A DNA stretch of 64,000 bases from Liolophura sinensis (taxonomy: Eukaryota > Mollusca > Polyplacophora > Chitonida > Chitonidae). The notes under the pieces are model-generated. The model was not told the DNA's origin, made no database searches, and was given only the letters and a program-made list of their open reading frames with translations. How positions within the stretch are numbered: the first letter of the stretch is position 1; each line of letters opens with the position of its first letter. Of the stretch, positions 35,431 to 63,524 are shown piece after piece. The stretch spans positions 24,835,764 to 24,899,763 of the forward strand of contig NC_088306.1 of the NCBI RefSeq assembly GCF_032854445.1, in the 5' to 3' direction. The position numbers were made by a program, and so were the translations under genes.

Positions 35431-35575
35431 TTATTCCTTCAGTTTGAAGAACTCTCTCAAGGGAGACAACATATGAGTTAACAACGGAACACTAGCAGCT
35501 TTTTCCAGCAAAGCAATTCTCTTGGACCGCGAGAGTTGTGGAACTTTGGTGTAGCCTTTTGGAAATCCCAGTTGT
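35431..35575 (-). CDS. DNMT3: DNMT3-like exon 21: C-terminus and stop
   Basis: It reads RQLGFPKGYTKVPQLSRSKR IALLEKAASVP.., matching VFGFP..YTDVS..ARQRLLGRSWSVPVI. It ends LREFFKLKE with TAA at 35431-35433, which overlaps an AATAAA. Confidence 0.92.
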
Positions 35576-38500
35576 CTGCAAGGAGAAAAAAAAATAACTT
35601 ACTAAAGTGTGCTTGAAGTTTGCCTTGGGGTTCAGTTTTGCTTCCAACATCTGGTTTGATTATATTGTTATGTCGAAGACACCAAACGCCACACTTTCTC
35701 AAGGCTATATTAAGTTTCAAACCAAAAATATACACCAACCGCAAGTGTCTCCCATACTGTAATTCTTCAACGTTTATGCATGTCTGCAAGCCGAGGTGTT
35801 TATTCAAGCCTATTCTGAAGGCATATCCTGTGTTGGCTGATAGAATTATATTTTTTGTGAAGCCCTGAAACTGGCCAATCCAACCAATGTAGTTTTGTCT
35901 CCAAAATTAAATTAAAAATGTGCATAAACTGCACTGAAAGTTGCTCTTTAACATACAAAAATGTTGAGGAATCAGGGTACACCATAACCTAGGTATTTCA
36001 CGATTATCCTTTTACAGCTTTTCATGATACATGCAAATTACAAAATAAAACAAAAATATTCCAAAATAAAACACTAATCCGTCATTTACATTGGTTCACA
36101 CTGTGAAAAAGGTTTGAAGAGGATGATGTTTAAATATAATGATAAGGGATCTATCGGGCATGAGAAGGTTCCCCAAAAATTTGGGTAATTTCAAGTTGTC
36201 ATGCTCAAATCAATTATTGTATGCCTATTCGCCAGAAAAGTTTCAAAAGATTTCGCCGCAAACAGATTATTCATCGTTAAATGTGGTACAGCGATTTCTT
36301 TTTTCACCTGAAAACACCCTGGATACGCCAAGCACCCATTAATGCCTAAGTTATGCTATTCCCTCTTTACAGTATACTGTAATTCTTCAACTATTCACAT
36401 GTTTGCAGGGTGTATATTGAAGCATATCCTGATGGCAATATTCTGTGTAGGCTCAAACTTTTTGTGAAGCTCTGGAATTGGCCAATCAAACCAATGTAGT
36501 TTTGTCTCCAAAATCAAATTACAAATGCGCACTAGTTGCACTGAAAGTCGCTCTTTCATTTCCAAAAAGGTTGAGGAATTGGGGTATCTGGTCAAGTGCC
36601 CCTGCCAGTAGTCCCATAGATGAGAAACCCACTTAGGCCCTATATTACAACCAAACAGCTAAGAATATCCCACCTTTCCAGATTCTCCACGTCGTCCACA
36701 TATTTAACTGTCTGTCTTGTCACCCCATCAGGCCCAGAATCTCTGCTTGACAACTGCTGAACACGTGTCAATATTTTGTCAATTATTTGGATGGTTTCAC
36801 CAATACACAAGAATATTTCACTGATCAATGTTCACATGGGCAGGAATACAGGCAAGGAAAACAGCAGACAAGGGGAGATGAAACAACACCCTGAGGGCAC
36901 ATACTGGGTACCTGACGGCACATATTGGGTACCTGATGGCACATATTGGGTACCTGACAGCACCTATTGGGTACCTGACGGAGGGTTGAAACTTGAGCCA
37001 CCATAATCAAACTGACAGCTTTGATGTGTAAAGTTTATTATTTAACTAATAGCGGTCACTGATTACAAGTATTACAAATCATATCAGAAACCAGTCTTAC
37101 CGTTTCCAGCAAACCCAAGGGGTGTCATACCAAAGACTTTAAAAATGGTACTTGCTGCTGCCTCGCTTTGTGCTAAGCAGTGAAAGGTTACAGCACACAA
37201 ACAAGACTGGTTGGCCTAGTGCCAGTGCAATGTGACTGGGTGGGGTGTCATGTCTGGTGCCTTCAGCATGATGCTTCAGTGGCAGCATGATGCTTCAGTG
37301 GCAGCATGAGACTTCAGTGGTGGCATGAACTCGCCCTGCCACAAAAAGACACAGTATATGTACACACACCTAATCAATGACCCCTCATCGTCATATGACT
37401 GGAAAATTGTTAAGTATGACGTCCAACCACAAGCATGTATACAGACATGTACATACATACCATTTCAGGCAGGGTAAAGGAATCTGTCCGTGCAGCTCTC
37501 CAGGTACTGAACACTTTACTGGTGTTGGGACTGTGAAAAAAAAACAAAACAATTTATTGTTTATTTTATTGGTGTTTTACGCCGTATTCAAGAATATTTC
37601 ATTTTTACTATGGCCGCCAGCATTACGAGAAAGTTCCTGGGGGAAACACACGACCATCTGCAGGATGCTGACAGACCTTCCCATGTATGGCCGGAGAGGA
37701 AGACACCCTGAGCTGGACATAAACTCACCTGAAAATGAATAAATTATTACGGCTTCAAGTCACTTTGGTAGTGTTTAAACCAGATCATCATGACATGCTC
37801 GTTGTAAAAACATGTAGTGGTAATACAAGTAAATGTAGTAGTTGTGCACGAATTCAGATCCAGTTCTCGACGGTGTAAGTAGCTTAAGGTAAGTAAGTTT
37901 CTGATAATAATTTGTATTTACTATAGTCTGCTTGTCAAGTATAGTCCATACAATACCAGAGTTTCCACTTCCTTTCTTGCTAAAGATAAAAATAGTCCAA
38001 CTGTGTCATTAAAAATGTTCGGCAGGATCACATTTACTGTAACACAAGGTGTCTGAAAAAATGTTCACAAATAGTCATTTAGCATACACAAAAGATGGAC
38101 AAAACCAAAGAGTTGAACGTTTGGGAACTTCAGAAGTTTCTGTAGGGCAGAGGCGTCGTTCGTGCCTCTGGAGCACGGCGAAACAAGTGATCGATAAATC
38201 AATGTCATCAAAGGTGGCCTAACATGTTTCATGAACTGGAACTCGAAACTCCCCTTAGCTTTCCTGATTACAACATGGAGGCATAATTTCAAAGCACATG
38301 CATATCTTGAACTTTGGAATCATGCAAACTGAAAGCATGTTACCCTTCTATCAGATAATTCACCACCATACACATGCAGAGTTACCTCCTCTTTTCAAAC
38401 TCACCGGTTGCGGCCTGGAATGTTTCCCCAAAAGTACTTCACACGATCAGGATAAGAAAACCATGAAGCGTTCATCAGTGATGGCGACACCTGGTGAAAT

Positions 38501-41500
38501 AATAATTATGGTCAGAATTGACCTGTTTCCTGCCACCATTAGGCTTCTTGCCGGTGTTTAAGTGAAGTAATTTCTTGAGTTTGGCCCAAATATCCAATCA
38601 GATAAATAAATGATTGACTGCTGGGTAATGCTGTACTGATGAATACATCAGCTGACCACTTCAATGGTACACTCGAGTGCCCCATTAAACCACCTACCAC
38701 TGGCTAGTTTAACTTTAATGATAAGCAGCTCTCGGAAATCTCGGAAATTTCCCATCCCCACGTTAGGATTTCATGCAGCTTTCATGTCCAAGTGATTTCA
38801 AAACAAGCTTTAATAACCACTTGGCCACAAAACACCACGAGCAAGGTTATGTGAATAATTCATTTATTTGATTGGTGTTGAACATTTCACTTATATGACA
38901 GTTGCCATCATTATGGTGGAAGAAAATGGGGCAAAGCTTGTGGGAACTCTTGGCCATTCGCAGGTTGGTGGCGAATGCATGCATGACCTGACAGGAGGCC
39001 AGCATTCGTTGCACTTGATCTCACAGCAACCGCCTTGGTAAGAGGTGGCTGTGCTGGCATGCTAACCACCTCTGCTCTTTTATTTGAAGTTGGTCCATTT
39101 TATTCATTAGATACTTGTACGCACCAACAGAAACTTAGTGCTGTTGGTTCGTTACCTTATATATAATACAGATTTTGATAACAGAAATCCATCCACTAAA
39201 CCCCCTTGTGGTGGAAAGGTTCTAATTTTCATTTGCCTTTAGCAGGAACTACATTCAGCCTACGTACCTCCAGGAAGGTAGAGATGTGTTCTCTGGCCAT
39301 GTTGACCATGGATGCATCGCTCTCGCACAGCCAAAACACATGCGTGGGAAGATTCTGTGTCAGACTCAGGTAGATACGTGCAAACTCCATCACACCTTCA
39401 CCATCCTCCGCTAAAAACATTCAACTTTAAGCTACTTCAGAAAACTTAAAACCTAAGCTTAATATGAAAAAAGATATTTTGTGGAGCAGGATAGTTTTCA
39501 AACTGGCCACATTAAATAAATACGACCCCAAAATCTGACAAATTTAAACCAGTTATATGACGGAAATTAAATATATTAACCAAGCCTAATTGAAGAAATT
39601 GTAGAATATTCAAAACTTAAGCACGGAAACAAAATTTCTTGAAGTTTTATCAAAATAGGGATATGTTTAGAGCAGTTATTACACTGAAACAAATGTTCAA
39701 TGAGATATAACTGACAGAAAACATTCAATATGCACAGTTTTTGAACAATCCTAATCAATCTCATACAACATAAACCTCCTGACAAAATTTTATCCAAACC
39801 AGCATCCGTTAATAATCAACATTATATGTGTCAGGGTTATTTGAGTGCAATAGCCAACTATAAACACACACTACATATTTAAACTTGTGCTCACACGGGG
39901 TGAGTACACAAGTATGTGGGTTGGGTCATCATTACATTATGGGTCATCATTAAATTATAGGACATCATTAAATTATAGGACATCATTAAATTATGGGTCA
40001 TGGGCATAACCATCTCTAAGGCCTCAAAAACAAAGGTAATTTGTTGATAATGTGACCGTAATTAAAACCGTTCTTCACCTGGCCAGCCACAAAAGAGAAA
40101 CGTTGTCCCTTTAAATGTATTACAGAAATTTGCCGTCTCACCTTGTAATATATTTTTTGGACCCTTGTGGTACAACGCCATGCTAAACAAAACTATTTAA
40201 GTGATAGCCACCAATTTTATGAGAGGAAGCCATGCATGGCGCTGGAGATAACCACTGACTTTTGGTAAGTTACCTTCACTTCCCTCGTGCACAAGAATCA
40301 AGACTTCAGGACATAAACTCAAACAGAAATTTGTACATCTACTCACCATACCATGCCTCCGTGTTGGGTGCGTCTCCGCAGAAGCACTGTGAGGGGGGAC
40401 AGCCCAGCACAAGATCTATACGCTTCAGGGAGCGCAGCTGTGAACGGAATACAAGGTCCATACACCTTTTTAAAAAATATTTTCAGGCCCAATTAAATTA
40501 CACTTTTTCTGGGCATTTATTGGAATGAATAATATACAATTCAAAACTGACCATATACCATCTGAGCTTTCAAACACTGATTATGCACACACAAACTGTA
40601 TCAATTTCAAACACACTGGAAACAAATTTTTGCAGAGCTGGTCAGTATACTATGTCCAGTAGCATTGTAGGCTGCTTCTGTGGTCTGTTTTAAAACCAAC
40701 TCAATGTACATGCGCCAAGTTGGTTCTCGATTTCAAGAACTGTTTACATGTTCTAGGCCCAACGTCTAAAATCCCTTACATAACCTCAGGCTTTTTATGG
40801 CCTGGAACTGTTACTTTAAAGGATACATGAAAAAGGTAGAGTATAAAATGAATAGTGGGGTTTTAAGGAACATGAAGAAAAGTATGAAAAAAAAAAAGAG
40901 ATTTTTTTTGGATGGTGGGCGGGGGTGGGTGGCGATGTTTGAGACATATTTTATATTTTCTAATTAACCCATCTAATGGCAGGGAATACTCCGAAATGAC
41001 TTCATCCGTGAATAAACTGGGAATGCCAGACTAACTTAGTGCCCCCAATTCAGCCCCCCCCCCCCCGCCCCCGAAACAAAGTTGTTTTGGCAGTTAGCTG
41101 CACTGTTGACGTCAACATAGACTGCGTAATTCCAGTCTGACCGATACGGCTTTACAATTGCAAAAAAAAAAAAACAGGGGGGAACCCATGATTGAAGCCT
41201 GCTGACAGTCCTTCCCACCTACACAGAAGTCAAATCTACAAGTACTTAATGAATATACCTGCTAAAGCTAAAACCATATCAATAAACCATACAGTAAATT
41301 CTGTCAAAAGGCCTGACAAACCTACCTTGTCAGTATGCAAGTCTTGCATGTCACCAAGCTGGGTGAGGCTGTCGCCATAGTTCCTTGCTCCAATAGCCAT
41401 GGACGCAGGATCAATCTCGCAGGCAAAATACTCCTCAACTTCAAATCCCAACTTGTCTAAGACCAGCATCCCTGAAATCATATGGTTATGAAATGGATCA

Positions 41501-44500
41501 GTTAAGGTCGGTGAAACACTATTTTTTTAGCAAACCACTGAAAATATTAACTCGTAGCTTTACTAGGTGTTGACAAAACCATTTATTATATTTATTTATT
41601 TGATTGGTGTTTATATGCTGTACTCAGGGAGGAAACCGGGCAGAGCCTCAGGGAAATCCACACCTATCCGCAGGTTGATGACAGACCTTCCAACTTACAA
41701 TCTGAGAAGAAACCTGACATTAGCTGGGCTTGAATTCAAAGCCATTGCACTGGTGAAAGGCTCTCGGGTCATGGTGCGGGTAGAACTGTTCAGAGTAACA
41801 CGCAAATTCAAGTTGTTCGGGTTCTCACGCGGGTAGACAGGTAAAATGCAGGACACCTCAGGACCCAAAAAACAATGTAACTTATTATTCCATTCCCACT
41901 ATTCAGTGTACCTGGGCTGGACATTTTTATGACATAACAAAGCCATACGCAGCTTTGGTTCTGAGGGCATCAGTAAACGCAGCCACTGTGCCATCTCATA
42001 CACCAGCCCTGCTTGAATAATTTTACTGGATTTTATAAAACTACAAGCTTTGTCTGTCCAATAGAAAAATTAGCAAATTTAACATTCTTTCCTTGGAATA
42101 TTATGAGAGAATGAAATTCAACATTAATGTCTAACATACTTTGTTACAATTAAATGTAACAAATCCTTTCATAGACACATGAATACCCTAAATGACCTAA
42201 AAATTCAACCACAAAGGAGCATTTTTGGAGGCAAATAAATGTAATGAGATATTACTTCCAGGGGGCTAAAACATACATTTTCCCAGTACGATATCATCCT
42301 ACCATTCAAATACTCTCAAAACACCTTTCTAAAATTAATAGAACTCCCAGAATCTGTAAAAATGAGCAACTTACTCATGAACATAATTTTAGGTCATTTA
42401 CGGACTTGGCATGACATGTACATAATTTGTTTGACATATACGTACAGGAGGTGGCTTACCTGTTGCGATCCGGTCACACAATGATAACACCCGTAGGGGC
42501 TTCCTCATTACGTTCAATGGCTTCTATAAATATTAAAAACATCCAACACATAAAGCAATGAAATCTTGCAGTTTATGGATTTTTCAATTTAATATCCTCG
42601 TTTTCACCTTGTTCTCGCCACGATATGGCTGAAATATTGCCGATGTGGCGTTAAGCCATAATCATTCATTCATTCATTCATTCATTCATTCAATATCCAG
42701 TGGTGCACAATCTAACAGGTGGAGGTAACTCGAGTGTCCAGGGTAAATGACTGGCCTGGGACAGGCTGCTATTGAACTTCCCAGGGTTTCCGCGAGAAAA
42801 TTAAGTTTGAGTCTGTTTGAGGCAGAGGGTTGGTGGTAGAGAAGTTATATGAGGGTGAAAAGGTGGTACACATGTACCCGCTTCAGTTTTGAGTTTTTTG
42901 ATAATTATCGATATTCTTAGTAAAACTCCTCTGTTGTATCACTACCTTCCGATGAGCAAGTCACGAAATTAAACGAAAATAGTGCCAAGACTTGAGCGTG
43001 GTAGGCAAAAGCCAGGTGAATTACATTCGCTGATGGCTTTGTGGTCTTGTGGACAATTTATATCTTACTCCATGGCCTATACGAGGGGCAATTCCTAGCC
43101 AAGAAACCAGCTTTGAACTTTTAAAGATGGGTAAGGTCTACATCACAGCCGAGAAGTTATCCATAGTTAAAAATGTATATGGGAGCAGAGCCTTCCACCG
43201 ACTTGCTCGGAGAACAAAAACACAAGAAAACACTAATGTGTCATCGGCAAAAGTCAATTGAATTACATTCTCCCACGGCTATACGTTGTCTTCTGGACAT
43301 TTTTTATCCCATTGCGTGGCATATATGAGGGGTAATTCCATATTATATCTCTCTTTTCGAGTCTTTCTTACAAATCTTACGTCTTCATTCAACATGTGCA
43401 GCTACATGTATGTTTTCCCGCGGAGTGCATGCACATTTGTGGTTGACGTTTTGGTGTTAAAAACAAACTTGCAGTCATAGCGTCAATTTCTTGTCATTTT
43501 AAAAGAATCTGGCACTTCATACTTCCACTTCATTCTACAATGAGCTTTCAAAACAATGCCGTTGTCCATTTTTGTATGCTGAGCTGTTCAATAGATTGAA
43601 ATACATAAATAACCTTGTGATATACCAGATGTCAAATTCTCAATACCAGACGTCAACGTGATTGACATACATATTTAGGTTGATCGGGCAAAAGACGTCA
43701 CGCGTTGAGTAGATCAAAACAGACCCTATTTTCCAGTACAAATACAGATACAATGTCATGATTGGGCACACACGTCATCCAGGGTAAGGATGGCAGCTGT
43801 CTCAGTGTATCAGTAAATATACACTGTAAGACTGGATCCTTAGACTGGATTTCGGGCTAGGCCATTCCATGAATCTCGCATTGACATGTTACATGTGGAG
43901 CGATTGTTTTCGTGCTATTCATGCACACCCATTATTGACCTTTCTGACCTATCAGGACACATGATCTCACACATCGAACATTGATTTCTTGTCACTTTTA
44001 GAAGCATTTTCAAAATTATTGACGTATGAAGAAGTCAGTCAAATAGACCATCCATTGGCCATATTTTCAGGCTACTATAGGCCTATGCATTCTAGCTATT
44101 ATGCTGGAGCACCATTAGTGCGGCATGCACTAGATCATAGGTCCTAGACACAACACCAAAAATAAACAATTTGACGAAATGCAGGAACGGGACTCGTCAA
44201 TGATGTAGCAGACACACAAGAGTTTGGGGAGTGTGCAGACTGGTTTGTTTGGGGCTTTAACTATTTATTACCATCAACACAACTATACAAGGATTCAAAT
44301 ATTTAGCTGGTGATTGAGAAGGCTTTATTTCACTTTTTGTACGTCTGAGGAGGGTAGCTTTTCCAGGTAAATGGGTCCGTTTACAAGACGAAAAACAGAC
44401 CTAGCTGTTTTCCCACAGCTTCCTGCTTCCCCACGTGACACACAGAATTTGCTACCATACTGGTGGAAGTATTCTACCGTACTGTAATTCTTCAACCATT

Positions 44501-53500: not shown

Positions 53501-56500
53501 CACGACCATCCGCATGTTGTTGCCACACTCACCGGTGTTAAATGTCAAACTAGAGACTGTGTCAAGAATACGGAAACCCACGACCATCCGCAGGTTGCTG
53601 CCACACTCACTGGTGTTAAATGCCAAACTAGAGACTGTGTCATGAATATGATCGTCTGGGTTTATGGATGGAGGGAACTGGACAGCTGTCATTCTCTTTT
53701 AGAAATCTGATTATTTAACTACTGATATTAAAACTGCTTATACTGAGCACGGGACATGTTTATGAAAAAAGCACCTACATGTACTAGCAACCAAAATTCC
53801 AGTCGAAATTTGTTGGTCTTGTCCTTTTGGTTGGGTGCATATAAAAGCAATATTCAGTTATTTTTCTGACTAGTGTTGCATATACCCTGCTCAATACTAA
53901 ACAATAACTTTAGCGAAAGTGGGGTTCGAACAAAGAGTTCTTAGAGCAATAAGTACATGAATATTGTCAAGAATCATCTACTTTTAATGATTTACCCGTC
54001 TCATTCTGGTTTGAGGTCTTTCCGTGATCTCCATGGTCCTCAATCCTCTTTGCCAGATACTTGAAAACGATCTGAGGAATGCTTCCAGCTTAAAATAATG
54101 AAGTTCATTTGCCGTATTTCATGTGAAGTTGGACAACTTTATAGTGGCACATTTTGCTTCACTCTTTTTGATTTATCCATGTTTAGACCAATTAAAAGGT
54201 TTTTTTTTTGTGAAGTTTCACAAATTTTGCATCAGATATACCCAAGTGCATTAATAGTATACTTCAAGGCCTCTATGTGCTACTGAATGTCCAGTTTTAC
54301 ATTCTGCATACCAAACTTTAGGTCAAACGCAGTAATTTAGAGAGAATATTTTCCCTGTATATATTTATTCATTATTTATTTGATTGGTGTCTTACTCAGG
54401 AATATTTTACTTATACGACGGCAGCAGGTATTATAGTGGGAGGAAACCGGGCACAGCCTAGGGGAAACCCATGACCATCCACAGGTTGCTGTCAGACCTT
54501 CCCATGTACGGCTGGAGAGGAAGCCAGCATGAGCTGGACTTGAACTCACAGTAATTGCATTGGTGAGAGGCTTCTGGATCATTACGCTGCACTAGCGCGC
54601 TAACCAACTGAGCCACCGAGGCCTCAAACAGTTCTAAAGGGCATATAAAAGGATAAGCAGCAATGGTTTAAATGATGTATTACTGTAAATGAGACGCTAA
54701 CATTTCCCGAGAGCTCACAGTAACGTGTCTGTAACTGACATGCGTGCCAGTGTGCTAACCAACTGAGCCACAGAGGCCCCGCCCTGTATTCAGGAGACTA
54801 TTATGGTGGTTTGTGGGAAATGCAGAGTGCCTGGACTAAACAATAGCCCTTTGGCCCGCTATATTGATATATTTTTCCATGCGGACCTACTAGAATTTAA
54901 TTCCCTTGGTGTAGAATCCCCAACAAATCCTGACAAGGCCCAGTGTAAGAACTTGTTCCCCTCTCGCTGCTCAGGCAGATCCACATCACACCGATCAGTA
55001 CAAATCTGAATATATATATATACAATATATATATGACAAAATCACTGACAATCCGCTGAATTTATTTATTTGATTGGTGTTTTACGCCGTACTCAAGAAT
55101 ATTTCAGTTATATGATGGCAGCCAGCATTATAGTGTGAGGAAAACGGGCAGAGCCTGAGGGGAAACCCACGACCATCCGCAGGTTGCTGAGGGACCTTCC
55201 CGCGTACAGCTGGAGAGGAAGACAGAATGAAACCTGACTTGACTTGAACTCACAGCGACTGCATTGGTAGGAGGCTCCTGGGTCATTATACTGTGCTAGT
55301 GTGCCAAACAACTGAGCCACGGAGGCCCCTCTCAGTGAATTAAGCAGGGCACTTTGACATGATGTGTCAATATCCATTGGGAACAGCTGTTCTGTGCAGC
55401 TGACTTCCGCTTATATAATCTACAAACTGTAAAAGTTTACAAAGTAACAGAAAAATGTGGTACAATAGTGATCATGTATTTACATGGATAATGAGTTTCA
55501 CCTCAAAAATTTTTAATTTGATCATGGGCCAATACCCTTAAATCCAGAGCCTCAGTTCCAACTTACATGTTCTGTCGGTATGTATCATGCTGCCTCACTG
55601 AAACAGTCTCCCAAAGAGAATGGACAGGACACCCTTCCTAGTGCTCATTGTGTACACCGACACCAGAACATGAGTACATATCTCATACTGAATGCCAAGC
55701 CAGAGAAGCACAAGCAATGTCAATTTTTAAAGAGACTACACAGTAATATCACCTAAACTAACTTCGCTTGGATTCCAGGACTTACCTGATCATATAAGGG
55801 TATCAATTTAGTCATCCAGCCACTAACAAGACCCTTAACTAGTGTGTATTTTATACCTTAATAGCTTCCAAAACACCATTTTGGTACATTTTTCCTTCCC
55901 TCTTCTGTTGGTACCGCTTTAGAAAATTCTCAACAAATGGTGATGTTTGAGATGAAGCAATCTGTGCAAATAATATAAAAAAAATACATGCAGTGCATTT
56001 TTCTTCATTGATTAATTTGATTGGTGTTTTATAACACTCAAGACTTTTCACTTTAATATATGGAAAGAGGGGCAAAGTTTGTGAAAAGATAAGTGCCCTA
56101 CTTAAAACTACAGCTGAAGTTGTAAGAGGTGCATTTAAAAAGGTAGCCTTTTTTTTTTCTTTGATTCGTATTTTTAGGTTTATACTGAAGTCCCATAATT
56201 TAAAAGAAATTGATCAGGTGAAGATTACTGGAACTCAATAATTGGACAAAACAAAATACCCTGCCTTTGTCAAGTAAACTACTGTATAGCTCGAAGGGTT
56301 TCCTTCCCTGCCTGTACTGGGATTTGAACTCAGATGACACATCCATGCTCAGCACTGACTACAAACTGAGTTAGTGAGAAATTTCCAGTAGCTACTGCTA
56401 TCATAAGTGCTGGGCCATCTTTTAAAATTGTTTGTTAGGTGTAGCTTGACTGTGGTCATGGAGCCTTCATTTAACTCTGACCAAAAATATAGGAATTTCA

Positions 56501-59500
56501 AATTTAAACAAATTACCATAAGGAACAAGACAAAAAATCTCAGTACAGAAAAAGTTGGACTCTCTGTCACAGGGTCGCTCATTAAGGTTTACGCCCAACT
56601 TACAAAACATGTTGTAAATCACTGCCTGGAGGGCTGCCTTTATTCCGTAACAATCAGTCCTTTGTGTAACATGTATGGTCTCCATTCTACATATAATACT
56701 GTATTTCACCTAAAATTTGGCATTTTGCAAGCAAAACATTTTGATTGATTCTGATAAATTCATACACTTTATAGGCCACTGGATGAGTTTTCTTCCTGAA
56801 GTTTGATTAATGTACGCCTAAGCAATGGCAACAAAAGTGTCATTTTTGGGAATTTGTACAAGCTTCAGGTGAAATACACTGAACTGCATTTACAGGGTAT
56901 TAAGGTACATGTACAAAGGCTTTTCTACCAATGCTAACTACCTTAGATATTTTATGGTCTCCGAACCAGAAAACCCAGCATTTCTCAGCAGCAGTAGGTT
57001 CTAATCCAAACTGAGTTCCATCAATCACGACCCCTGGCCAGACTGGACTATTGCGACTTAACCTACCCCAAACAAGACAGCCCAAGTCAACAGCAGTCTG
57101 AAAAAAAAACAACAAACAAACAAACATCGCATTTCAGACATTTATATTTACTGCTTTTTTTTGGTTAATCATATTATTTCTTTGATTAGCAAAAAAAAAC
57201 ATGCATTCCATTTCAGATAATTAAATGTAATTTTAGATGATAATTTTATTTCCTTGACTAGCATAAAAAACAAACATCGCATTTCAGACATTTATAACTA
57301 CAGCATTTTTTAGTTAATCATTTTATTTCTTTGACTAGCGAAAAAACATGCATCCCTTTTCAGATATTTATAATTAAATGTATTTTTAGTTGATAATTTT
57401 ATTTCTTTGACAAACATTCTGGAATCATGGCGACTATTCCAGCAGGAAACCACAATGACAGAGACTTTACAAGGAAACCAGGGTTGAATAATGAAGAGCA
57501 AACCAAGCAGGACAAGACCAGAGGAAACCTCACTGGCACAAGATGGAGGAAACCCTGCTGTTACAGACAGGGCCAAAACTTACAAGTGCTTTCAGGAAAC
57601 ACTTATATACCTATACAACGGTGGCCAGAATCACTGTGGGAGGAAAATGGGAAGAGCTTGACAGGGACACTCACGACCATCCACTGGTTGCTGAAAGACC
57701 TTCCCAAATACAACTGAAAAAAGAACACTTGGGAGAAAACTCTGCAGGTGAAGGTGTCACACACAGGAATAAACCTTGCAGGCATAATCTCAACGAAAAT
57801 ACCTATATAAAAAAAAAGAAACCCAAGAGAAACCAAAACTGGCATACAAAGGTGGAAACCATGTGAAAGTTGCGAAAGAGGGTATCTTCCAACAGTACCA
57901 TCCTGTACATCTGATGGGCAGACATCTTGATGAGGTAATGCCTCTGGGATAAATCGCTGATGGAAAACACTGAGGTTCTGTGCTAGCTCTGGACATTTTT
58001 TTCTTTCCTTTTTCCCATGTGGCAAAAATGGCCAAAATTTTTTTAGCCATTTTGACAATAATACTGTCATAACAAAGTTCATGATTTGAAACTTAAAGCA
58101 AAGCAGTGAATCAACCAAAAAGTATGTGTGGTCGGTGTGAGTTCCTACACCTCAGACTGGCTTCCTCTGCGGAGGTTTGTCTGCAGATGGCCGCAGATTT
58201 CCCCCAGATTGAGTACAGCGTGAAAAATCAGTCAAATAAATAATAAAATGTGAAGTTACTGTTCACAGCCTGTCTTCCCTATCCTCTCAGAAGAGCTTTA
58301 AGGCTACATAAGCTTTTCCCGCTCGGCGACCATGCATGGTTTCACAGTTGTAAAGGGGAACAACTCAAGACACACGCATATACATGTACATGTATGCAAA
58401 TCCACAAATAAAATCAGAGTCCTGACATACATGTAAGTTTGAATAAAAACGAAAATGTCTGAAACCAAACAAGATGATACTGCTTCGCCAAGGTGGTGGC
58501 GTTAACGAAACATAATTTCGCCAAACTGAAATAAAGTTCACAAAATACACAAAAGGAGATCGGTAGTGCTAGTACAGAGGTTGCAAGAATTCAGCTCTGT
58601 CTTTGTGGCTTCCTTCTGAGGGAAGCTACCTCAGGGAATGTCTGTGATTTCATTCTGTTCCCTCCAACCCATGAACTATTGTCAGAAAAGTTCTGGAGTT
58701 TAAATGCCCATCAAATGAAGGAATAAGATAATATGTCTGGCAAAGTATAATTCATTCTCACTTTTCTATAATTTGAATGTAATTAAAATTTTTACCTCTT
58801 GATTTTCCATAACTCCCTTCTTCTGTGATTTTGATATTTCCATTGCAGGTTGTAGTGACTCCATTGCATTTGACCTACTGGGTCTTTGGTCTATCCTATC
58901 ATCCACTGATGGAATGCCAAACTGACCAGTTTTCTTCCGTCTTTGTTGCAAACGATCTTTGCAGCCATTACTTCCTCTCTGAAAGAAAGAGACACATATT
59001 AAATGTTACGTTATAAGTAAATGGTTAACACTTGGGTTTAACGTTGTACTGACAAATTTTCAGTCACTTGACAACAAGGAGTCATTAGACGTGTGTACAT
59101 GTATACATTGTGTCTTCTTGTAGAGGGCGAGTCCATGCTGCCATCACTGCAGCATCGTGCCAAAGACACCAGACATGACACCCTACCCAGTCACATTATA
59201 TCGACACCGGGTCAACCAGTCCTGTTTCCTCGCTGTAAGCTCTCAGTGCTGAGCGCCAAGCAAGGCAGCAGCAGCAAGCACCATTTTTATAGCCTTTGGT
59301 ATGACCTGACCCAGATTTGATCCCGATGTCTCCCAACTTTCAGGCCAACACTCTAACCATTAGGCCACTTAAGCGGCACAAAGTTCACTGGTAGGTTAGT
59401 ACCAACTTTTCTATTGTTTATTCCAATACCTGATTACCGCCTGCTGTGTCACACCTTACCTGACCATAAAACAAGAAGCATATCAACCATTGACGGGAAA

Positions 59501-62500
59501 CAGGGTGTACTGGTGGTAGAAAAAGAGTACAGGAACATGTATCTACCATTTGCAATCAGAAAATGACGTATCCCCACAGACCTACCATAGTAAATAAGGT
59601 GCTATTCTGTTTTGAGGAATTTAGTCTGCCTACCAATCCATGAAACCACTTTTTTGCTAATGTTACATTCCATAATGTTTCACATTCTGTATTTCACCTG
59701 AAGTTTGGCCTCCAAAAAGCCACTTTCAGACGCAATAAAGGTTTATAGGGCCTTGCAAAAAATATTCTCAAGCTTACATTTAATTACAAATTTTTACCCC
59801 CTCATTTTTCATCGCCTTCCTTTTCTGTGACTTCTCTAGTCTTATTTCCGGTTGTAGGGACTGGATTGCATTTGAATGACAGGAACTTTGGTTTGTCCTG
59901 TTTTCTACCCTTGGAACACAAAACCGAACAGTCTTCTGAGGTCTTTGACGCAAACTGTATTCCCAGCCGTTACTTCCCCTCTGAAAGACAGACACATATG
60001 CTCAGGTGAGAAGATTAATTACAGGTATATGTACACACCCACAGTGAACAGGTACTAACATGATCGTTATTTTAATTCGACTGATTAATATCTATATGTA
60101 GAAAGGTAGACAGTCATGCACACTATTTGTGGAATTTGCCGCAATATTTTTGGAAAATGTTAGTGAGCATTTACAGTCTCAAAACTGAAGATTTTTCTGT
60201 AGATTTACATTTGTTTGAAAGGAGGCAGGGGCTCGTTGTTCAAAAAAGTATTAAGATTTATGCCAGGCTTAACTCTTAATACTGGTCTCAGACTAATACA
60301 AAACTAATGGCACTTCAGTCCAGACTAAGGATAATACCGGGGTTAATTGATAATACACTTTTGAACAACTGGACCCAGATGTTTATCCCCTTTGTATCCC
60401 TTCCAGCACAAACTCAGAGACCTGTTAACTGATCTGTACAGGTAGAGTTATGTAAGACAGGCGGAAAAACACATTAGCAAAAAAGTACACATTAACAATA
60501 GCTGCAACACTCCCAACACACAATTTCATGTCATCTTGCACACAGGCCCTGGGTAAAACCAATCCATGTAGGATGTCAAAAATTTGACCCACTAACAGTC
60601 TGAGCACCCAGCAGACAAGCACTGATCAAATAAATTAAAGGGGAGATTGTTTGGGCCTGAAATTTACTCACCATCTTTGTCACCTTGTCTGTAGAATCTA
60701 AGTGTGAATATGATCCTACCATACTTGACGAGGATTTTTCCTTTCCACTTTCCACAGAGGATTCCTCCCTTCCACACTCCAAAGAGGATTCCAGCAATCT
60801 GCAGTCCAAAGAGGGTTCCTCCCTTCCACACTCCAAAGAGGATTCCAGCAATCTGCAGTCCAAAGAGGGTTCCTCCCTTCCACACTCCAAAGAGGATTCC
60901 AGCAATCCACGTTCTAAAGAGGATTTCTGCAATCCACGTTCTAAAGAGGATTTCTGCAATCCACGTTCTAAGGAGGATTCCTCCCTTCCACACTCCAAAG
61001 AGGATTCCAGCAATCCACGTTCTAAAGAGGATTTCTCCCTTCCACACTCCAAAGAGGACTTCTGCAATCCACGTTCTAAAGAGGATTCCTCCCTTCCACA
61101 CTCCAAAGAGGATTCCTGCAATCCATGCTCCAAAGAGGATTTCTCCCTTCCACACTCCAAAGAGGATTCCTGCAATCCACGCTTCAAAGAGCATTTCGCC
61201 CTTCCACACTCCAAAGAGGATTCCAGCAATTCACACTCCAGAGAGGATTCCTCCCTTCCAAACTCCGAAGAGGACTTCTCCATTTCATGTTCCAAAGAGG
61301 ATTTCTCCACTCCATGCTCCAAAGAAGGTTCTGCTCTTCCACACTCCAAAAAGGATTCCTCTCTTCCTGAAGCGTCTAATTCCATAGCAACAGGAAAGGT
61401 GCTATATATGCTCAGCGAATCAACATCTGAGGGAGATTCTCCAGAGAGGTACACATCACTATTCCTGATGGAGTTTACAGAGTTACCTCCCTGAGAATGG
61501 AGATCTCCAGTTTGTTTCCACTCTTCAATTGTAATAGTCTGGTTTGGCAACCCATGATGTAATGATGACTTCGCACTTTGCAACTCACTGCTGGTAGCAA
61601 TGGCTTTTTCATAGTCAACTTGGTCTCTGCAGTTAACTCCCTGAGAAAAGAGCTCTTCTGCTTCGGATGACTCAGCAGGTTCTTCAGGCAGCTCAGCAAG
61701 GTTTGAGTCCGATCCACTGCTTTGACCTTTATCAGTTTCTCGAAGAGGCTGAAACATGCTAAATTCAACAAATTCATCCCCACCTTTTGACTGGCCAGCA
61801 AGAGATCTGTCAACAATGGCGGATACCATTTCCTCTGTTGGCCTGCTTCCAGATTTGGATCTAAAGGATGGTCCTTCAGCATGGATACTCTGAAGCATGT
61901 CCCGGACATTTGCAATCTTCGAAGTCAAAGAATTAAATTCACTGATAACCCTTTTCTGGCAACTAGAATCTTTGAGAAACTCTTCATAGATATCTCTGCA
62001 TACGTCCCTGCCAAAGTCAACCATTTTTGACACCGCAAGTAGCTTGATGGATGCCTTTGACTGAGCTTGAGTCTGCTCAAAACAAACATCTTTGTCAACA
62101 GCAGGAACCGTTGTGGTGCAGGGTACTGATTTTGTTGCTGTCTCACTCTGTCCATTTAGCCTGGCCATGTGCTTAGCTGTCTTTTTTGACTTAAAGTTTG
62201 CCATCCGTAAGTTTTTATCTCCTTCTGGAATAGTTGGTGAGAGAAAATTCACCTGATCTTCAAAACATTTGTTAATGGGGTGATCATCACCATTTGAAGG
62301 TGTCTGTTGCAACCTGCGCTTTCTGGAAAAGACTTCTACTACCTCATCTACTGCCTTATTCTGTGATCTTCTTGTCACTCTGGCCAATTCACCATGTTCT
62401 CCTTCCTCAAAATCTGGACTACTTTGACCTTCAAACTGCACTTCAAGGTCATTAGTTTCAAAATCTTCTTGCCAGTGTTCTGGGCAATTACACTTCTTTT

Positions 62501-63524
62501 TACTGAAACAAGGCAATAACTGAAGGCCTGGATTACAACCTTGAGAAAGTCCGCCTCCAGTGAACTTTGGATTCCCATCAAATTCGTTGTCATTCCGTGT
62601 CGTTTCATCTTCAAATAATGTGTCTCGACTGGTCTCATCACTTTCCGAAGCCAGACTGGTGCAAGGCGGACACGTCACAGGAGTACCATGGTAACAAGAA
62701 AATCTGTCTCTGGACCAGTTCAAACACAGTTTACAATGGCATTTGCTTTGCTTAAGCTCCTTGACCAACAGCAATCCTGGACTCTCAGCTGCTTCTGCTC
62801 TTCGTCTACAAAGCTTTTTCTGGTGTCTTCCGCTTGAAGAGGAACCAGTATTTTTCCTTGCACCAGACCCTGATTCTAAGGAGCAAAGATCTGCTACTTT
62901 TGACAAAACAAATCTTGAAGAACGAAATTCTGGGGATCCTTCCACAAGCACTGATGGTGATGTGCAATTGTCATCTGTTGGGCAATTTGAGGCAAACCCT
63001 GAGCTAGAAATTTCTGTCCGTGTGGGTGAAAGTAAGGCACAGTCAGTTAGATCGCTGGTTTCCCTAGATGGAGGAATTTCTGGGTTTGAAAATAGACCAG
63101 TTCCTCGTCTTGCCCTGAGGCCATATCTTGTAGGCAGATTAGTTGGATGTCGAGATGCACCCTGGAGCATTATTCTTGGCTTTGGCACCACTTCATTCCT
63201 TTGTCTTGTAAGCACGTAAGTAGAAAAGTTGTCATCTAAAATATCAACACATTGTCTGTCCTTTCTAATCCCAGATTCATGGCATGGGACTGCCAAAGTA
63301 GGTGAGCTTCCTGGTTCAAGCTCTTGTGCAAGAGGTCCTTCTTTATCAAACTTGGGCATTTCCTTTTCTTTCCAGCGGAAAGTCTTGCTGTTTCCATCCA
63401 TAGCCCTTCCTGACACTCTTAAGCTGGAACTTCCTCTCTGTTTACTCAAGCGCCCATGTGTTTCATGATGCAGGCTCCCCTGCACAACTGCCCGACTAAA
63501 GTTTTTCAATTTGGATTTGGACAT
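35431..63524 (-). CDS. DNMT3: DNMT3-like protein, PWWP-ADD-MTase, degenerate catalytic site
   Basis: There are 21 exons, each listed separately; they total 4944 nt with every junction phase agreeing and encode 1647 residues. Order: low-complexity N-terminus (1-951), duplicated 61-residue exons (952-1073), PWWP (1074-1160), linker, ADD zinc fingers (about 1244-1373) and a 274-residue C5-methyltransferase fold (1374-1647). DNMT3 enzymes methylate CpG de novo; ADD reads histone H3 unmodified at K4, and PWWP reads methylated H3K36. Here motif I reads LSLCDRIATG (family LSLFDGIATG), motif IV GCPPSQ (family GGSPCN, so the catalytic Cys position is Ser1459), motif VI CESD (family FENV), motif VIII RVK for RAR, and motif X EKAASVP for a GR-S-VP type. 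I infer a catalytically dead regulatory protein. The least certain junction is the exon 19 donor. Confidence 0.88.
35757..35977 (+). mobile_element. MITE copy 1 (TA-flanked, ctgtaattcttcaac ends)
   Basis: Begins ctgtaattcttcaac and ends gttgaggaatcaggg, flanked by TA on both sides. Non-coding and about 220 bp. Four further copies follow in this window. Confidence 0.82.
36377..36584 (+). mobile_element. MITE copy 2
   Basis: Same ends (ctgtaattcttcaac .. gttgaggaattgggg), TA-flanked, 208 bp. Confidence 0.82.
36674..36756 (-). CDS. DNMT3: DNMT3-like exon 20
   Basis: QLSSRDSGPDGVTRQTVKYV DDVENLE, aligned to TTRSNS..FPVF..EDILWCTEMER. The acceptor is tgttcag and the donor aag/gtggga. Confidence 0.85.
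36897..36980. repeat. 21-bp tandem repeat, four copies
   Basis: gcacatattgggtacctgac repeats four times with few changes, in the intron before DNMT3-like exon 20. Confidence 0.9.
37140..37430 (+). repeat. SINE family B copy with internal triplication
   Basis: Shares ggtgtcatgtctggtg, the cacagtatatgtacacacac stretch and catatgactg with the copies at 2927 and 59041. A 20-bp word (atgcttcagtggcagc..) is tandemly repeated inside it at 37268-37325. Confidence 0.75.
37555..37735 (-). repeat. SINE family A, partial
   Basis: Tail (attggtgttttacgccgtat) through body to gctggacataaactcacctg. Head missing. Confidence 0.8.
38101..38167 (-). CDS. DNMT3: DNMT3-like exon 19: target-recognition part
   Basis: RGTNDASALQKLLKFPNVQL FGF, aligned to the [20 protein letters not shown] region. 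The donor ttt/gtccat is weak and was chosen for phase only, so the 3' end may be wrong. Confidence 0.65.
38405..38490 (-). CDS. DNMT3: DNMT3-like exon 18: MTase motif VIII
   Basis: VSPSLMNASWFSYPDRVKYF WGNIPGRN, matching the HRARYFWGNLPGMNR region. Confidence 0.9.
38862..39078 (-). repeat. SINE family A, diverged
   Basis: The tail is shortened (gattggtgttgaacatttca). The body and a degraded head ending at ctaaccacctctg are present. Confidence 0.7.
39268..39410 (-). CDS. DNMT3: DNMT3-like exon 17: MTase motif VI
   Basis: It reads AEDGEGVMEFARIYLSLTQN.. with HVFWLCESDASMV in place of FFWLFENVVAMG. Glu1503 is kept; Asn and Val of ENV are changed. It ends STFLE. Confidence 0.92.
39935..40010. 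repeat. 18-bp tandem repeat, about four copies
   Basis: The word catcattaaattat(a/g)gg recurs with small changes. Confidence 0.85.
40347..40437 (-). CDS. DNMT3: DNMT3-like exon 16: MTase motif IV
   Basis: LRSLKRIDLVLGCPPSQCFC.. Aligned to DLVIGGSPCNDLS, the Pro is kept and the catalytic Cys position is Ser. Two Cys follow at +2 and +4, which does not restore the PC motif. Confidence 0.92.
41326..41471 (-). CDS. DNMT3: DNMT3-like exon 15: MTase motifs II-III
   Basis: It reads GMLVLDKLGFEVEEYFACEI DPASMAIG.. The acidic residue of motif II (ACEI) and GD..DL of motif III are kept. Confidence 0.92.
41582..41795 (-). repeat. SINE family A, internally deleted
   Basis: Tail gattggtgtttatatgctgt, body ggaggaaaccgggcagagcc, and box-B-like ggcttgaattcaaagcc. 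Confidence 0.75.
42460..42523 (-). CDS. DNMT3: DNMT3-like exon 14: MTase motif I
   Basis: KPLNVMRKPLRVLSLCDRIA T. The SAM-binding loop FDGIATG reads CDRIATG, placing Arg1391 where the family has Gly. Confidence 0.92.
42608..42696 (+). repeat. SINE tail of a fourth family with (ATTC)n end
   Basis: gatatggctgaaatattgcc gatgtggcgttaagcc, followed by seven to eight attc units. I recognise this 3' end from molluscan genomes (abalone and limpets). Confidence 0.7.
42985..43345 (+). repeat. Two-copy direct repeat of about 100 bp
   Basis: gcaaaagccaggtgaattacattc.. and gcaaaagtcaattgaattacattc.. each lead into a ggac(a)att..atgaggggtaattcc type sequence about 240 bp apart. Confidence 0.6.
44482..44689 (+). 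mobile_element. MITE copy 3
   Basis: ctgtaattcttcaac .. cttgaagaattaggg, TA-flanked, with the same internal sequence (gccctgaaactggc). Confidence 0.82.
44855..45255 (-). repeat. Two SINE family A pieces
   Basis: 44855-44965 has tail and body (ccagcattatggtgggcgga). 45065-45225 has another body with gttggacttgaacttaaaac. Confidence 0.65.
45570..45785 (+). mobile_element. MITE copy 4
   Basis: ctgtaattcttctac .. gttgaggaaatagga. The right flank no longer reads TA, so this copy is more diverged. Confidence 0.75.
45819..45950 (-). CDS. DNMT3: DNMT3-like exon 13: ADD end and linker
   Basis: It reads IHANDDWLCFMCAPYSRSTH GLLE.. with the last CxxC of ADD, then NWEENVDHLCS, matching the DWPSRLQMFF region before the catalytic domain. 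Confidence 0.9.
46974..47028 (-). CDS. DNMT3: DNMT3-like exon 12: ADD, PHD-like finger
   Basis: VYCEPCIKTLVGERMLQK, matching the CVECVDLLVG stretch of DNMT3A. Confidence 0.88.
47563..47627 (-). CDS. DNMT3: DNMT3-like exon 11: ADD, PHD-like finger
   Basis: VYCSICGDGGQVIVCCSPTC AR, with the first Cys ligands of the PHD-like finger. The acceptor is aaaatag; an internal ttgcag would put a stop in frame. Confidence 0.88.
48560..48738 (-). repeat. SINE family A, 5' half
   Basis: Body from ggttgctggcagaccttccc to an intact head ending aaccaactgagccacggagg. The tail is lost. Confidence 0.85.
48815..49205 (-). repeat. SINE family C with (GAGT)n end
   Basis: gagtgagtgagtgcttgggg tttaacgtcatgctc starts the reversed tail. 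The box-B-like ggatcaatcctgggtcgagt is near the other end. Confidence 0.8.
50255..50398 (-). repeat. SINE family C head fragment
   Basis: On the - strand: ctgatagcacagttggtagattgtcc (box A) then ggtcaatcctggatcggttc (box B). It is the best tRNA-like head of this family in the window. Confidence 0.8.
50819..50866 (-). CDS. DNMT3: DNMT3-like exon 10: ADD
   Basis: DALVETLFSVGEDGIQ, the segment that contacts the H3 tail in vertebrate ADD domains (YDDDGYQ there, VGEDGIQ here). Exactly 16 codons. Confidence 0.88.
51294..51492 (-). mobile_element. MITE copy 5, opposite orientation
   Basis: The same element reversed: ctaattcttcagcc .. aaaagaattacag, TA-flanked. An isolated end (gaagaattaggg) lies at about 51741-51755. 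Confidence 0.78.
51872..51957 (-). CDS. DNMT3: DNMT3-like exon 9: ADD, GATA-like finger
   Basis: It reads VCMVCFDETADVDIQHPAFK GGLCMNCK, with both CxxC pairs of the ADD GATA-like zinc finger and the HP.F.GGLC signature. Confidence 0.92.
52155..52215 (-). repeat. SINE family A tail fragment
   Basis: (attt)n followed by gattggtgttttacgctttactcaagaa; the rest is missing. Confidence 0.75.
52838..52882 (-). CDS. DNMT3: DNMT3-like exon 8: short linker into ADD
   Basis: DQLALVRSGAVRLE, 45 nt, phase 1 out. Joined to exon 9 it gives LEDVCMVC, like IEDICISC of DNMT3A. Confidence 0.7.
52965..53060 (-). repeat. SINE family A body fragment seeding a minisatellite
   Basis: tctacgacgacggacaacat through cgaccatccgcaggttgctg, running directly into the 78-bp tandem array. 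Confidence 0.8.
53028..53652. repeat. 78-bp minisatellite, eight copies
   Basis: The word cgaccatccgcagg starts at 53035 and recurs every 78 bp to 53581. Each unit is part SINE body and part unique sequence (ccggtgttaaatgtcaaact). The period is 26 codons, so both strands show long open frames that are artefacts. It lies between DNMT3-like exons 7 and 8. Confidence 0.95.
53996..54088 (-). CDS. DNMT3: DNMT3-like exon 7: linker
   Basis: It reads GSIPQIVFKYLAKRIEDHGD.. ending SNQNET. The acceptor attttaag is chosen for phase; a second acceptor 17 bases further in would not fit exon 6. Confidence 0.6.
54370..54625 (-). repeat. SINE family A, full length
   Basis: Reverse copy with tail, body, box-B-like sequence and a head ending aaccaactgagccaccgagg. 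A second head-only scrap is at 54745-54780. Confidence 0.88.
54891..55005 (-). CDS. DNMT3: DNMT3-like exon 6: post-PWWP linker
   Basis: It reads ICTDRCDVDLPEQREGNKFL.. with HWALSGF, matching the EWALGGF of vertebrate DNMT3A. The donor tcta/gtaggt is chosen for phase with exon 7; gtccgc four bases on would break the frame. Confidence 0.7.
55055..55330 (-). repeat. SINE family A, full length
   Basis: gattggtgttttacgccgta through gacttgaactcacagcgact to aacaactgagccacggaggc. Confidence 0.88.
55585..55735 (-). repeat. SINE body fragment, family B or C type
   Basis: tgcctcactgaaac.., tactgaatgccaagccagagaagc and a degraded continuation resemble the middle of the family C copy. Confidence 0.5.
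55857..55961 (-). CDS. DNMT3: DNMT3-like exon 5: PWWP, second part
   Basis: Residues 1126-1160: IASSQTSPFVENFLKRYQQK.. YQNGVLEAIK, the C-terminal helices of the DNMT3 PWWP. The acceptor is ttgcacag and the donor aag/gtataa. Confidence 0.85.
56942..57097 (-). CDS. DNMT3: DNMT3-like exon 4: PWWP, first part
   Basis: Residues 1074-1125: TAVDLGCLVWGRLSRNSPVW.. with the WPG of the PWWP core and CWVFWFGDHKISK. The first Trp of the usual WWPG reads Val here. Confidence 0.9.
57600..57725 (-). repeat. SINE family A body fragment, diverged
   Basis: acaacggtggccagaatcac and cgaccatccactggttgctg. No head or tail remains. Confidence 0.65.
58120..58250 (+). repeat. SINE family A, internally deleted
   Basis: ggtcggtgtgagttcctaca, a short body, then gagtacagcgtgaaaaatca gtcaaataaat. 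Confidence 0.65.
58796..58978 (-). CDS. DNMT3: DNMT3-like exon 3 (duplicated exon, copy B)
   Basis: 61 codons, phase 0 at both ends: RGSNGCKDRLQQRRKKTGQF.. ending GVMENQE. The splice-site flanks also match exon 2 (tgtgtct..tttcag before, gtaaaaattt after), so the duplicated block included intron sequence. Confidence 0.8.
59030..59375 (-). repeat. SINE family B, full length
   Basis: On the - strand: head gtggcctaatggttagagtg (box A), box B near gggatcaaatctgg, then gtgtcatgtctggtg, and a tail gtcagtacaacgttaaaccc. It lies between the two duplicated DNMT3-like exons. Confidence 0.8.
59798..59980 (-). CDS. DNMT3: DNMT3-like exon 2 (duplicated exon, copy A)
   Basis: 61 codons, phase 0 at both ends: RGSNGWEYSLRQRPQKTVRF.. 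ending KAMKNEG. It matches exon 3 at 28 of 61 residues without gaps. Function unknown; it is basic and polar. Confidence 0.8.
60672..63524 (-). CDS. DNMT3: DNMT3-like exon 1: long disordered N-terminus
   Basis: Residues 1-951, starting MSKSKLKNFSRAVVQ. It is Ser/Glu-rich with few hydrophobic clusters. It contains two Cys clusters (CHCKLC..C..CPPC near residue 260 and CFSKKKCNC near 340) that could bind metal, a basic SRKRR stretch, and about 23 copies of a 9-residue repeat near the end. The donor is ATG/gtgagt. Its link to the downstream DNMT3 exons is inferred from the phase-0 junction and from family architecture. Confidence 0.75.
60733..61360 (-). repeat. Coding 27-bp minisatellite, about 23 copies
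   Basis: Nine-residue units alternate between two types, SLECGREES and SLERGLQKS, giving a 54-bp higher-order period. Length changes stay in frame. Open frames on the opposite strand through this tract are by-products of the repeat. Confidence 0.9.

Follow-up and report, generated by a model that had tools for sequence, protein, structure and literature searches.

In mammals, DNMT3L and the inactive DNMT3B isoforms place or stimulate active DNMT3. DNMT3L has no PWWP domain, and DNMT3B3 and other inactive DNMT3B isoforms lend a dead methyltransferase (MTase) fold as an accessory to DNMT3A (PDB titles name DNMT3B3). In vertebrate DNMT3 the PWWP domain reads H3K36 methylation and the ADD domain reads unmethylated H3K4, as given in the excerpted text of PMC8821070. 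Invertebrate cases have also been described. According to extracts of PMC8016896 and PMC11963560, DNMT3.1 of Daphnia magna carries PWWP, ADD and an MTase without five of the six motifs, its authors compare it with DNMT3L, and its partner DNMT3.2 is motif-complete. For the pea aphid, extracts of PMC3335499 (see also PMC2826372) describe Dnmt3X as being without key residues and as a gene that 'may be a pseudogene'. The window, that is, the whole stretch of 64,000 nucleotides analysed here, is C12:24835764-24899763 (scaffold_8) of the assembly of Liolophura sinensis, a chiton name emended from L. japonica (PMC12441733). A first-pass annotation of this DNA had proposed a DNMT3L-like pseudoenzyme in an invertebrate and was aware of no described case. 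The proposal itself stands in that the gene looks like a pseudoenzyme by sequence and an intact partner is found in the genome, but the lack of a described case does not, given Daphnia DNMT3.1 (PMC8016896, PMC11963560) and pea aphid Dnmt3X (PMC3335499) as excerpted above.

Exon chain of the window gene

Spliced alignment was guided by DNMT3A, the scallop and abalone DNMT3 proteins, P0012 and P0001, and it placed a single DNMT3-type gene in the window, on the minus strand. From 57097 to 35431 its 18 exons encode PWWP, ADD and a DNMT3-type methyltransferase fold with 0 stops. With exon 1 added, the chain has 19 exons running from 63524 to 35431 and encodes 1525 aa with no internal stops, all of its junctions being GT-AG and in phase. 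The gene, strand and span that had been annotated are those recovered by this chain, and the annotated chain was rightly called open and in phase, although we find 19 exons and not 21. The marks of a pseudogene, whether stops, frameshifts or broken splice dinucleotides, are absent. The joined window protein scores 187 bits against the MTase profile, which excludes a chance resemblance. Between PWWP and ADD lie three linker exons, at 54891..55005 (HWALSGF, found with four guide proteins), 53996..54088 (GSIPQIVFKYLAKR, found with guide P0012, its boundary less certain) and 52838..52882 (DQLALVRSGAVRLE, its length of 45 equal to that in the paralogue on C1); these and all other exons of the gene are given in window positions and lie on the minus strand.

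The NCBI model P0001, named 'DNA (cytosine-5)-methyltransferase 3A-like [Liolophura sinensis]' and 441 aa long, can be read from the window without a mismatch, and from ADD to the end its exons are those of our chain. It differs in starting within ADD (51949), in a fifth exon that is 18 bases longer (to 45801) and in an additional 105-base exon. The latter (41949..42053) places 35 residues within motif I, has a weak donor, lies outside the 19-exon chain and, if real, would further disrupt SAM binding. As a reading of the genome sequence, expression apart, the exon chain is confirmed by P0001. A tblastn search of the window with 8 DNMT3s as queries gave no alternative exon with the PC motif at E<1; since the true motif IV exon, which has diverged, escaped the same search, this argues solely against a well conserved alternative exon.

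The first coding exon (60672..63524, 951 aa) probably belongs before the PWWP exons, and its membership is tentative. It lies inside a 982-aa ORF, its donor (ATG/GTGAGT) continues into the PWWP exon in phase 0, and it falls within the same CpG-poor block as the rest of the gene. Its C-terminus is of low complexity with 18-aa repeats. No Pfam family scores over cut-off in it, no homologue of it occurs among the 164 fetched homologues or upstream of the C1 DNMT3, and a genome search with its first 720 residues gives back only their own locus (E<=1). The 18-residue repeats are encoded by a 54-base tandem array at 60744-61367 (11.6 copies, 84% match). A 78-base tandem array (53028-53648, 8 copies, 96% match) lies in an intron of the gene, and intron fragments with a similar translation (ASVAQLVSAL...), for example near 54461-54667 and 48637-48900 on the minus strand, were seen by eye and are probably a dispersed repeat family. 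Elsewhere in the window, on the plus strand, two long ORFs at 23509-30947 carry two CUB domains, a C-type lectin, LDLa, LRR and a rhodopsin-type 7TM, and we take them to be a GRL101-like composite receptor. A 376-aa ORF at 13295-14425, also on the plus strand, matches a plectin repeat (2.3e-15) and probably represents a single exon from a plakin-type gene.

Catalytic site, histone readers and an intact paralogue

Of the 164 homologous proteins fetched, P0001 and P0012 were excluded and MAFFT was run on the remaining 162 together with DNMT3A and the window protein. The MTase profile was made from 161 homologues and DNMT3A, each with more than 200 residues in that part. The sample is uneven, as it was found via similarity to intact DNMT3s and many of its members are vertebrate. 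Residues follow the human numbering of DNMT3A. Motif I (42460..42523, by alignment) reads LSLCDRIATG where the family has FDGI[AG]TG, so that FDGIATG has become CDRIATG. The exon of motifs II-III (41326..41471, by alignment) retains E664 and D686. In motif IV (40347..40437) the profile alignment of LVLGCPPSQC turns the family GGSPCND into GCPPSQC and puts Ser at the catalytic Cys, a position that is Cys in 161 of 161 other DNMT3s. MAFFT offers an alternative with a two-residue insert, in which the Cys of PPSQC is aligned with the catalytic Cys, whereas the profile alignment is gapless through the next conserved Pro and gives Ser with high posterior. We prefer the profile alignment, by which Ser would replace the catalytic Cys, and the other losses are independent of this choice. 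Alignment likewise places motif VI at 39268..39410 (FWLCESDASM, with E756 retained, N757S and V758D) and motif VIII at 38405..38490 (RVKYFWGNIPG, with R792K; family RARYFWGN). The exon at 37461..37530, which is in the NCBI model, has weak homology and 70 bases against 79 in C1, and leads into a shortened target-recognition part. The remnant of the target-recognition exon follows at 36674..36753 with a weak acceptor and 80 bases against 119 in C1, without TTRTNSL. This part is barely alignable and its TTRxNSL loop is gone. Motifs IX-X and the stop lie at 35431..35575 (GFPKGY...LLEKAASVPLL, by alignment), where the family LLGRSWSVPV has become LLEKAASVPL.

Taken by residue, the window protein has C640, R642, C707, S710 and Q711 in place of the family residues F, G, G, C and N, and S757, D758, K792, E890 and A893 for N, V, R, G and W; D641, T645, G646, E664, D686, P709, E756 and R790 are retained. 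F640C, G642R, N757S, R792K and W893A are each found in 0 of 157-161 other DNMT3s. The first-pass annotation had listed Arg for Gly in the SAM loop, a motif VI keeping only the Glu of ENV (here ESD) and a changed motif X, all of which the alignments reproduce, as does the profile alignment for its Ser in motif IV, where MAFFT sets the following Cys. Motif VIII is changed as it said, but more mildly than it implied, and of its 'whole methyltransferase fold' the core holds and the target-recognition part does not. At E<=1, Pfam DNA_methylase (PF00145) gives no match to the joined protein or P0001, against 63.7 bits for the C1 paralogue. Among columns at least 95% conserved, the window protein keeps 44 of 79, the DNMT3L comparator chain 22, the C1 copy 77 and the median homologue 79, the lowest of the other homologues (58 of 79) being two spider sequences with a gap at motif VI. 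Of the 38 columns at least 99% conserved, the window protein keeps 24, the DNMT3L comparator chain 12 and C1 all 38. What distinguishes an active C5 DNA methyltransferase, namely the Cys (by the profile alignment), the SAM loop FxGxG, the motif X Trp, ENV, RxR and the recognition loop, is missing, and judged by sequence the window gene is a convincing pseudoenzyme.

The readers are retained. PWWP is encoded at 56942..57097 (LVWGRLSRNSPVWPGVV...WVFWFGDHKIS, from spliced alignment) and 55857..55961, whose length of 105 is that of the C1 paralogue. The ADD domain begins with the GATA-like finger at 51872..51957 and continues through 50819..50866 (spliced alignment), the PHD-type finger at 47563..47627, 46974..47028 (spliced alignment) and a C-terminal exon at 45819..45950, which the NCBI model extends to 45801. 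In the joined protein Pfam scores PWWP at 37.7 bits, the same as in C1, the GATA-like finger (PF17980) at 47.7 and the PHD-type finger (PF21255) at 45.6, all over the cut-offs, in agreement with the earlier statement that PWWP and both ADD parts are kept. Of the columns at least 90% conserved in the MAFFT alignment, 10 of 11 are retained in PWWP, 24 of 27 in ADD and 58 of 112 in the MTase. W306, W330 and D333 of PWWP are retained, with F303N and W305V. At the H3-contact positions of ADD, which resemble those of vertebrates only in part, D531 is retained, with D529G (G in 22 of 160 others) and E545Q (Q in 3 of 161). The reader roles of these PWWP and ADD residues are assumed by us. An AlphaFold model of P0001 (40 sequences) has a mean pLDDT of 75.7; the MTase core lies mostly at 80-94, and values drop below 50 just past motif IV (residues 254-270), over the recognition part and over the insert that is peculiar to the NCBI model. 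Its best PDB matches are chains of DNMT3A/DNMT3B complexes (E ~1e-30, TM ~0.5 for the whole model). The predicted model gives weak support for the fold, because its alignment consists mostly of active DNMT3s. C8:30866778-30866930 holds a further ADD/PHD-like exon that shares 39% identity with a stretch of P0001 (E 0.009) and perhaps belongs to another ADD protein.

When the whole genome was searched with abalone DNMT3 as the query, a second DNMT3 locus came up at C1:54811241-54828586, its exons matching the abalone protein at 41-57% identity. Assembled over 54811238-54828595, it gives 605 aa from PWWP onward, contains PWWP (Pfam) and has intact motifs (SLFDGIGTG, GGSPCND, FENV, RARYFWGN, TVTTKSNSL, LLGKSWSV), while its SAM-site residue D686 is Asn. 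The first-pass annotation had suggested looking in this genome for a second DNMT3 with its catalytic site intact, and one was found at C1:54811238-54828595 (38 of 38 columns), so that the inactive paralogue stands beside a DNMT3 that is intact by sequence. Eleven exon lengths (105, 45, 86, 48, 65, 55, 64, 146, 91, 143 and 86) are the same in both genes, so the window gene is a DNA-level duplicate, and an origin as a retrocopy is ruled out. An assembly duplicate was also considered and dropped, the two loci being ~38-43% identical. With P0001 as the query, the genome search gave, among the best candidates scored, DNMT3 exons at C12 and C1 and two weak matches elsewhere. No second DNMT3 of the species was seen among the protein-database matches listed (including the best 120 of 393). 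Missing from the listed proteins did not mean missing from the genome, and an earlier argument against a DNMT3L-like role was dropped for that reason. A gene on C13 with the motifs GGPPCQGFSGMNRF and ENVRN is a DNMT1, named from these motifs.

By its domain order (PWWP, ADD, C5-MTase) and its place in animal DNMT3 the window gene belongs to the DNMT3 family. In a tree of 24 proteins over all domains, the chiton copies are sisters (91/91, not starred) within protostome DNMT3 (100/100), and the readers alone also make them sisters (89/89, not starred). The MTase-only tree leaves them unjoined, with a joint clade not rejected (p-AU 0.413), and the position of the window copy, a long row, is unsure. 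The protostome clade holds the window gene at 100/99 to 100/100 across the trees. The vertebrate rows were DNMT3A, 3B and 3C, with DNMT3L left out. A DNMT3 phylogeny including molluscs, which had been asked of the locus, thus puts the gene sister to the C1 copy (91/91) in the protostome clade, and the branch separate from vertebrate DNMT3s that had been predicted is what the trees give, DNMT3L itself being outside the rows. Descent from vertebrate DNMT3L does not fit, as the gene lies outside the DNMT3A/3B clade, is sister to C1 and has PWWP. Most likely, going by these sequences, an old duplication of DNMT3 occurred within the chiton lineage and the window copy then lost catalysis. L. sinensis is reported to have undergone a partial genome duplication (excerpt of PMC12005716). 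P0012 (ENA) is a 721-aa DNMT3 fragment with two PWWP domains that ends at motif I, FNGIGTG (Asp to Asn); its grouping with the chiton copies was not shown, a three-member clade being not rejected (p-AU 0.326). As regards other molluscs, gastropods tend to lack DNMT3 according to the excerpted part of a review (PMC11050768); contrary to that tendency, DNMT3 proteins are named for the gastropods Haliotis, Gigantopelta and Patella, and for the cephalopod Acanthosepion, among the matches listed.

Candidate role, selection and alternative explanations

We consider it fairly probable that the window gene is a pseudoenzyme paralogue working as an accessory subunit of the intact DNMT3. DNMT3 would have duplicated in the lineage to L. 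sinensis; the C1 copy would have remained, as its sequence suggests, a normal de novo DNA methyltransferase, and the window copy would have lost catalysis (the Cys gone, the SAM pocket altered, the DNA-recognition part shortened) and retained the PWWP and ADD readers with the core of the methyltransferase fold. PWWP and ADD may dock the protein on nucleosomes that are H3K36-methylated and H3K4-unmethylated, as in vertebrate DNMT3, and the dead MTase fold may pair with the C1 DNMT3 and place or stimulate that enzyme. A helper role is probable because the active site is gone but the histone readers are kept, and the intact DNMT3 in the same genome makes a DNMT3L-like partnership possible. At the 'FF' contact of DNMT3A with DNMT3L, whose positions we take to include 732 and 772, the window protein keeps E733, R736 and F772 and has R729V, F732M, Y735A and R771T, a mixed picture that counts against the accessory role; a two-residue gap (730-731) stands directly before 732 in its alignment. 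The window copy has M732 and F772 and the C1 copy F732 and T772, with F732 present in 158 and F772 in 150 of the 161 others (lost in 3 and 11, gaps included). An aromatic FF contact could then be complete solely between unlike copies. An obligate mixed pair, in which C1 alone catalyses and the window copy supplies the other half of the interface, is quite unlikely, and the pattern could be a coincidence. Both Phe are absent in three homologues (Dreissena, Eretmocerus and Portunus), so the FF contact is not indispensable. If the mixed pair were true, it would be a division of labour like that of DNMT3A and DNMT3L, independently evolved, and its dead subunit may still be a reader of H3K36.

An accessory subunit is thus our preferred reading, and the explanation that competes best with it drops the partner: the protein may act as a chromatin reader and transcriptional regulator through PWWP and ADD, independently of the DNA-methylation partner, which is possible but on balance unlikely; the like has been put forward for Daphnia DNMT3.1 and for DNMT3 functions that need no catalysis. 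Its identity to six lophotrochozoan DNMT3s, relative to theirs, is 0.96 in ADD, 0.86 in PWWP and 0.67 in the MTase, so that the readers are the best conserved part, as this explanation would have it. The same ratios, like the end branches given below, also speak for the accessory subunit, as they place the loss in the enzyme part. Daphnia DNMT3.1 mutants, in the extracts of PMC8016896, have 2770 genes with changed expression in starvation, and catalysis-independent roles are discussed there. Such a partner-free reader does not account for an MTase part that has stayed open and non-neutral since the duplication and has kept some interface residues, nor for the intact DNMT3 that is present to pair with.

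The selection data bear on whether an accessory subunit or a gene that is dying, its function lost or nearly lost and its expression persisting for now, is being seen; the latter is very unlikely. Its end branch is long, at 3.3 against 0.63 for C1 in the MTase (1.29 against 0.79 in PWWP and ADD), and with the shortened recognition part, the odd exon and ADD-internal start of P0001 and the remark in the excerpted 2012 review (PMC3335499) that pea aphid Dnmt3X 'may be a pseudogene' it gives decay some weight. The chain is nevertheless open and in phase with intact splice dinucleotides, where neutral decay would give stops: when a scallop MTase was decayed neutrally to 0.7 identity in simulation, the mean was 5.4 stops and only 18 of 2000 copies had none. 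The dS between the window gene and C1 is saturated, and codon-position counts were therefore used in place of dN/dS. The second-codon-position difference from C1 is 0.41 (266 codons), or 0.36 with the recognition part removed (215 codons), lower than the 0.51 that one neutral branch alone predicts (Jukes-Cantor, equal branch times; z -3.1 and -4.3). The simulation and these counts exclude neutrality over the whole time since duplication, and a recent relaxation is compatible with both. Once-invariant MTase columns are kept no better than average, and columns of the active site, SAM and recognition (a list chosen by us) are kept in 12 of 31 cases against 49 of 83 elsewhere (Fisher p 0.06), so that, as there is no significant excess of active-site losses, selection may have relaxed across the MTase fold as a whole. 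The readers evolve at near the normal rate, and the gene body shows a long-lasting CpG depletion, both of which also speak against a dying gene.

In invertebrates, germline gene-body methylation of steadily transcribed genes usually leaves its mark as CpG depletion. The CpG o/e is 0.87 at window positions 1-35400 and 0.43 from 35401 on, with TpG and CpA rising in step. The best single change point is 35401 (200-base bins), and the stop codon ends at 35431. A Mann-Whitney test of 27 inside against 35 outside one-kilobase windows, treated as independent, gives p 1.2e-10, and the adjacent receptor ORFs have a CpG o/e of 0.94-1.01. The low-CpG block extends past the window to ~68.2 kb with a bump of 0.74-0.77 near 65-66 kb, which could mark the boundary between two genes, and then CpG o/e is ~1. 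It reaches ~4.7 kb upstream of exon 1, which suggests a transcript start outside the window. The C1 gene also lies inside a broad low-CpG region. The footprint says that the lineage methylates DNA and hints that the window gene has long been transcribed. That the protein is still an active enzyme, its catalytic Cys shifted (PPSQC) and its SAM pocket unusual, is highly improbable: MAFFT does pair the Cys that lies two residues further along with the catalytic one, and D641, E664, D686, E756 and R790 are retained, but the gapless profile alignment gives Ser with high posterior, G642R, N757S, R792K, W893A and the lost TTRxNSL loop all tell against it, and model confidence falls below 50 right after motif IV (P0001 residues 254-270).

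Comparison with described DNMT3 pseudoenzymes

A search of the literature found no publication on chiton DNMT3, a mention in the mollusc survey of Manner et al. 2021 being possible. The active DNMT3s of molluscs (Haliotis, Mizuhopecten and Patella), and the C1 copy, have the same PWWP-ADD-MTase order as the window gene, but their motifs are intact. Counting DNMT3 genes by name or domain match can mislead, as P0001 is named '3A-like' and the intact C1 copy is absent among the matches listed. Like the window gene, mammalian DNMT3L is an inactive paralogue with ADD and a degenerate MTase beside active DNMT3s. DNMT3L is without the target-recognition domain, whereas that of the window gene is shortened, and it has lost more of the MTase (22 against 44 of the 79 conserved columns), the window gene moreover lying outside the vertebrate DNMT3 clade. 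Inactive DNMT3B isoforms are splice forms of an active gene, in contrast to the window copy, which is a separate gene. Pea aphid Dnmt3X resembles the window gene as a second, divergent DNMT3 in which key residues are reportedly absent; it differs in being described as a possible pseudogene, and is likened here by description. Daphnia DNMT3.1 is, like the window gene, an invertebrate paralogue in which PWWP and ADD are joined to an MTase that has diverged and lost most catalytic motifs, and its genome too has a motif-complete DNMT3. It differs in being from a crustacean and is said to retain motif VI only (compared by description); its partner DNMT3.2 is without PWWP, whereas the chiton partner on C1 has it. 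Going by descriptions and not by sequences, we infer separate origins for Daphnia DNMT3.1 and the window gene. The chiton case is thus an addition to a thinly sampled known kind and not the first in invertebrates. Taken together, the mammal, Daphnia, aphid and chiton cases suggest that DNMT3 has repeatedly split into an enzyme and a dead reader-partner, and they let the purpose of the dead partner be probed through the interface and reader residues that survive independent catalytic losses.
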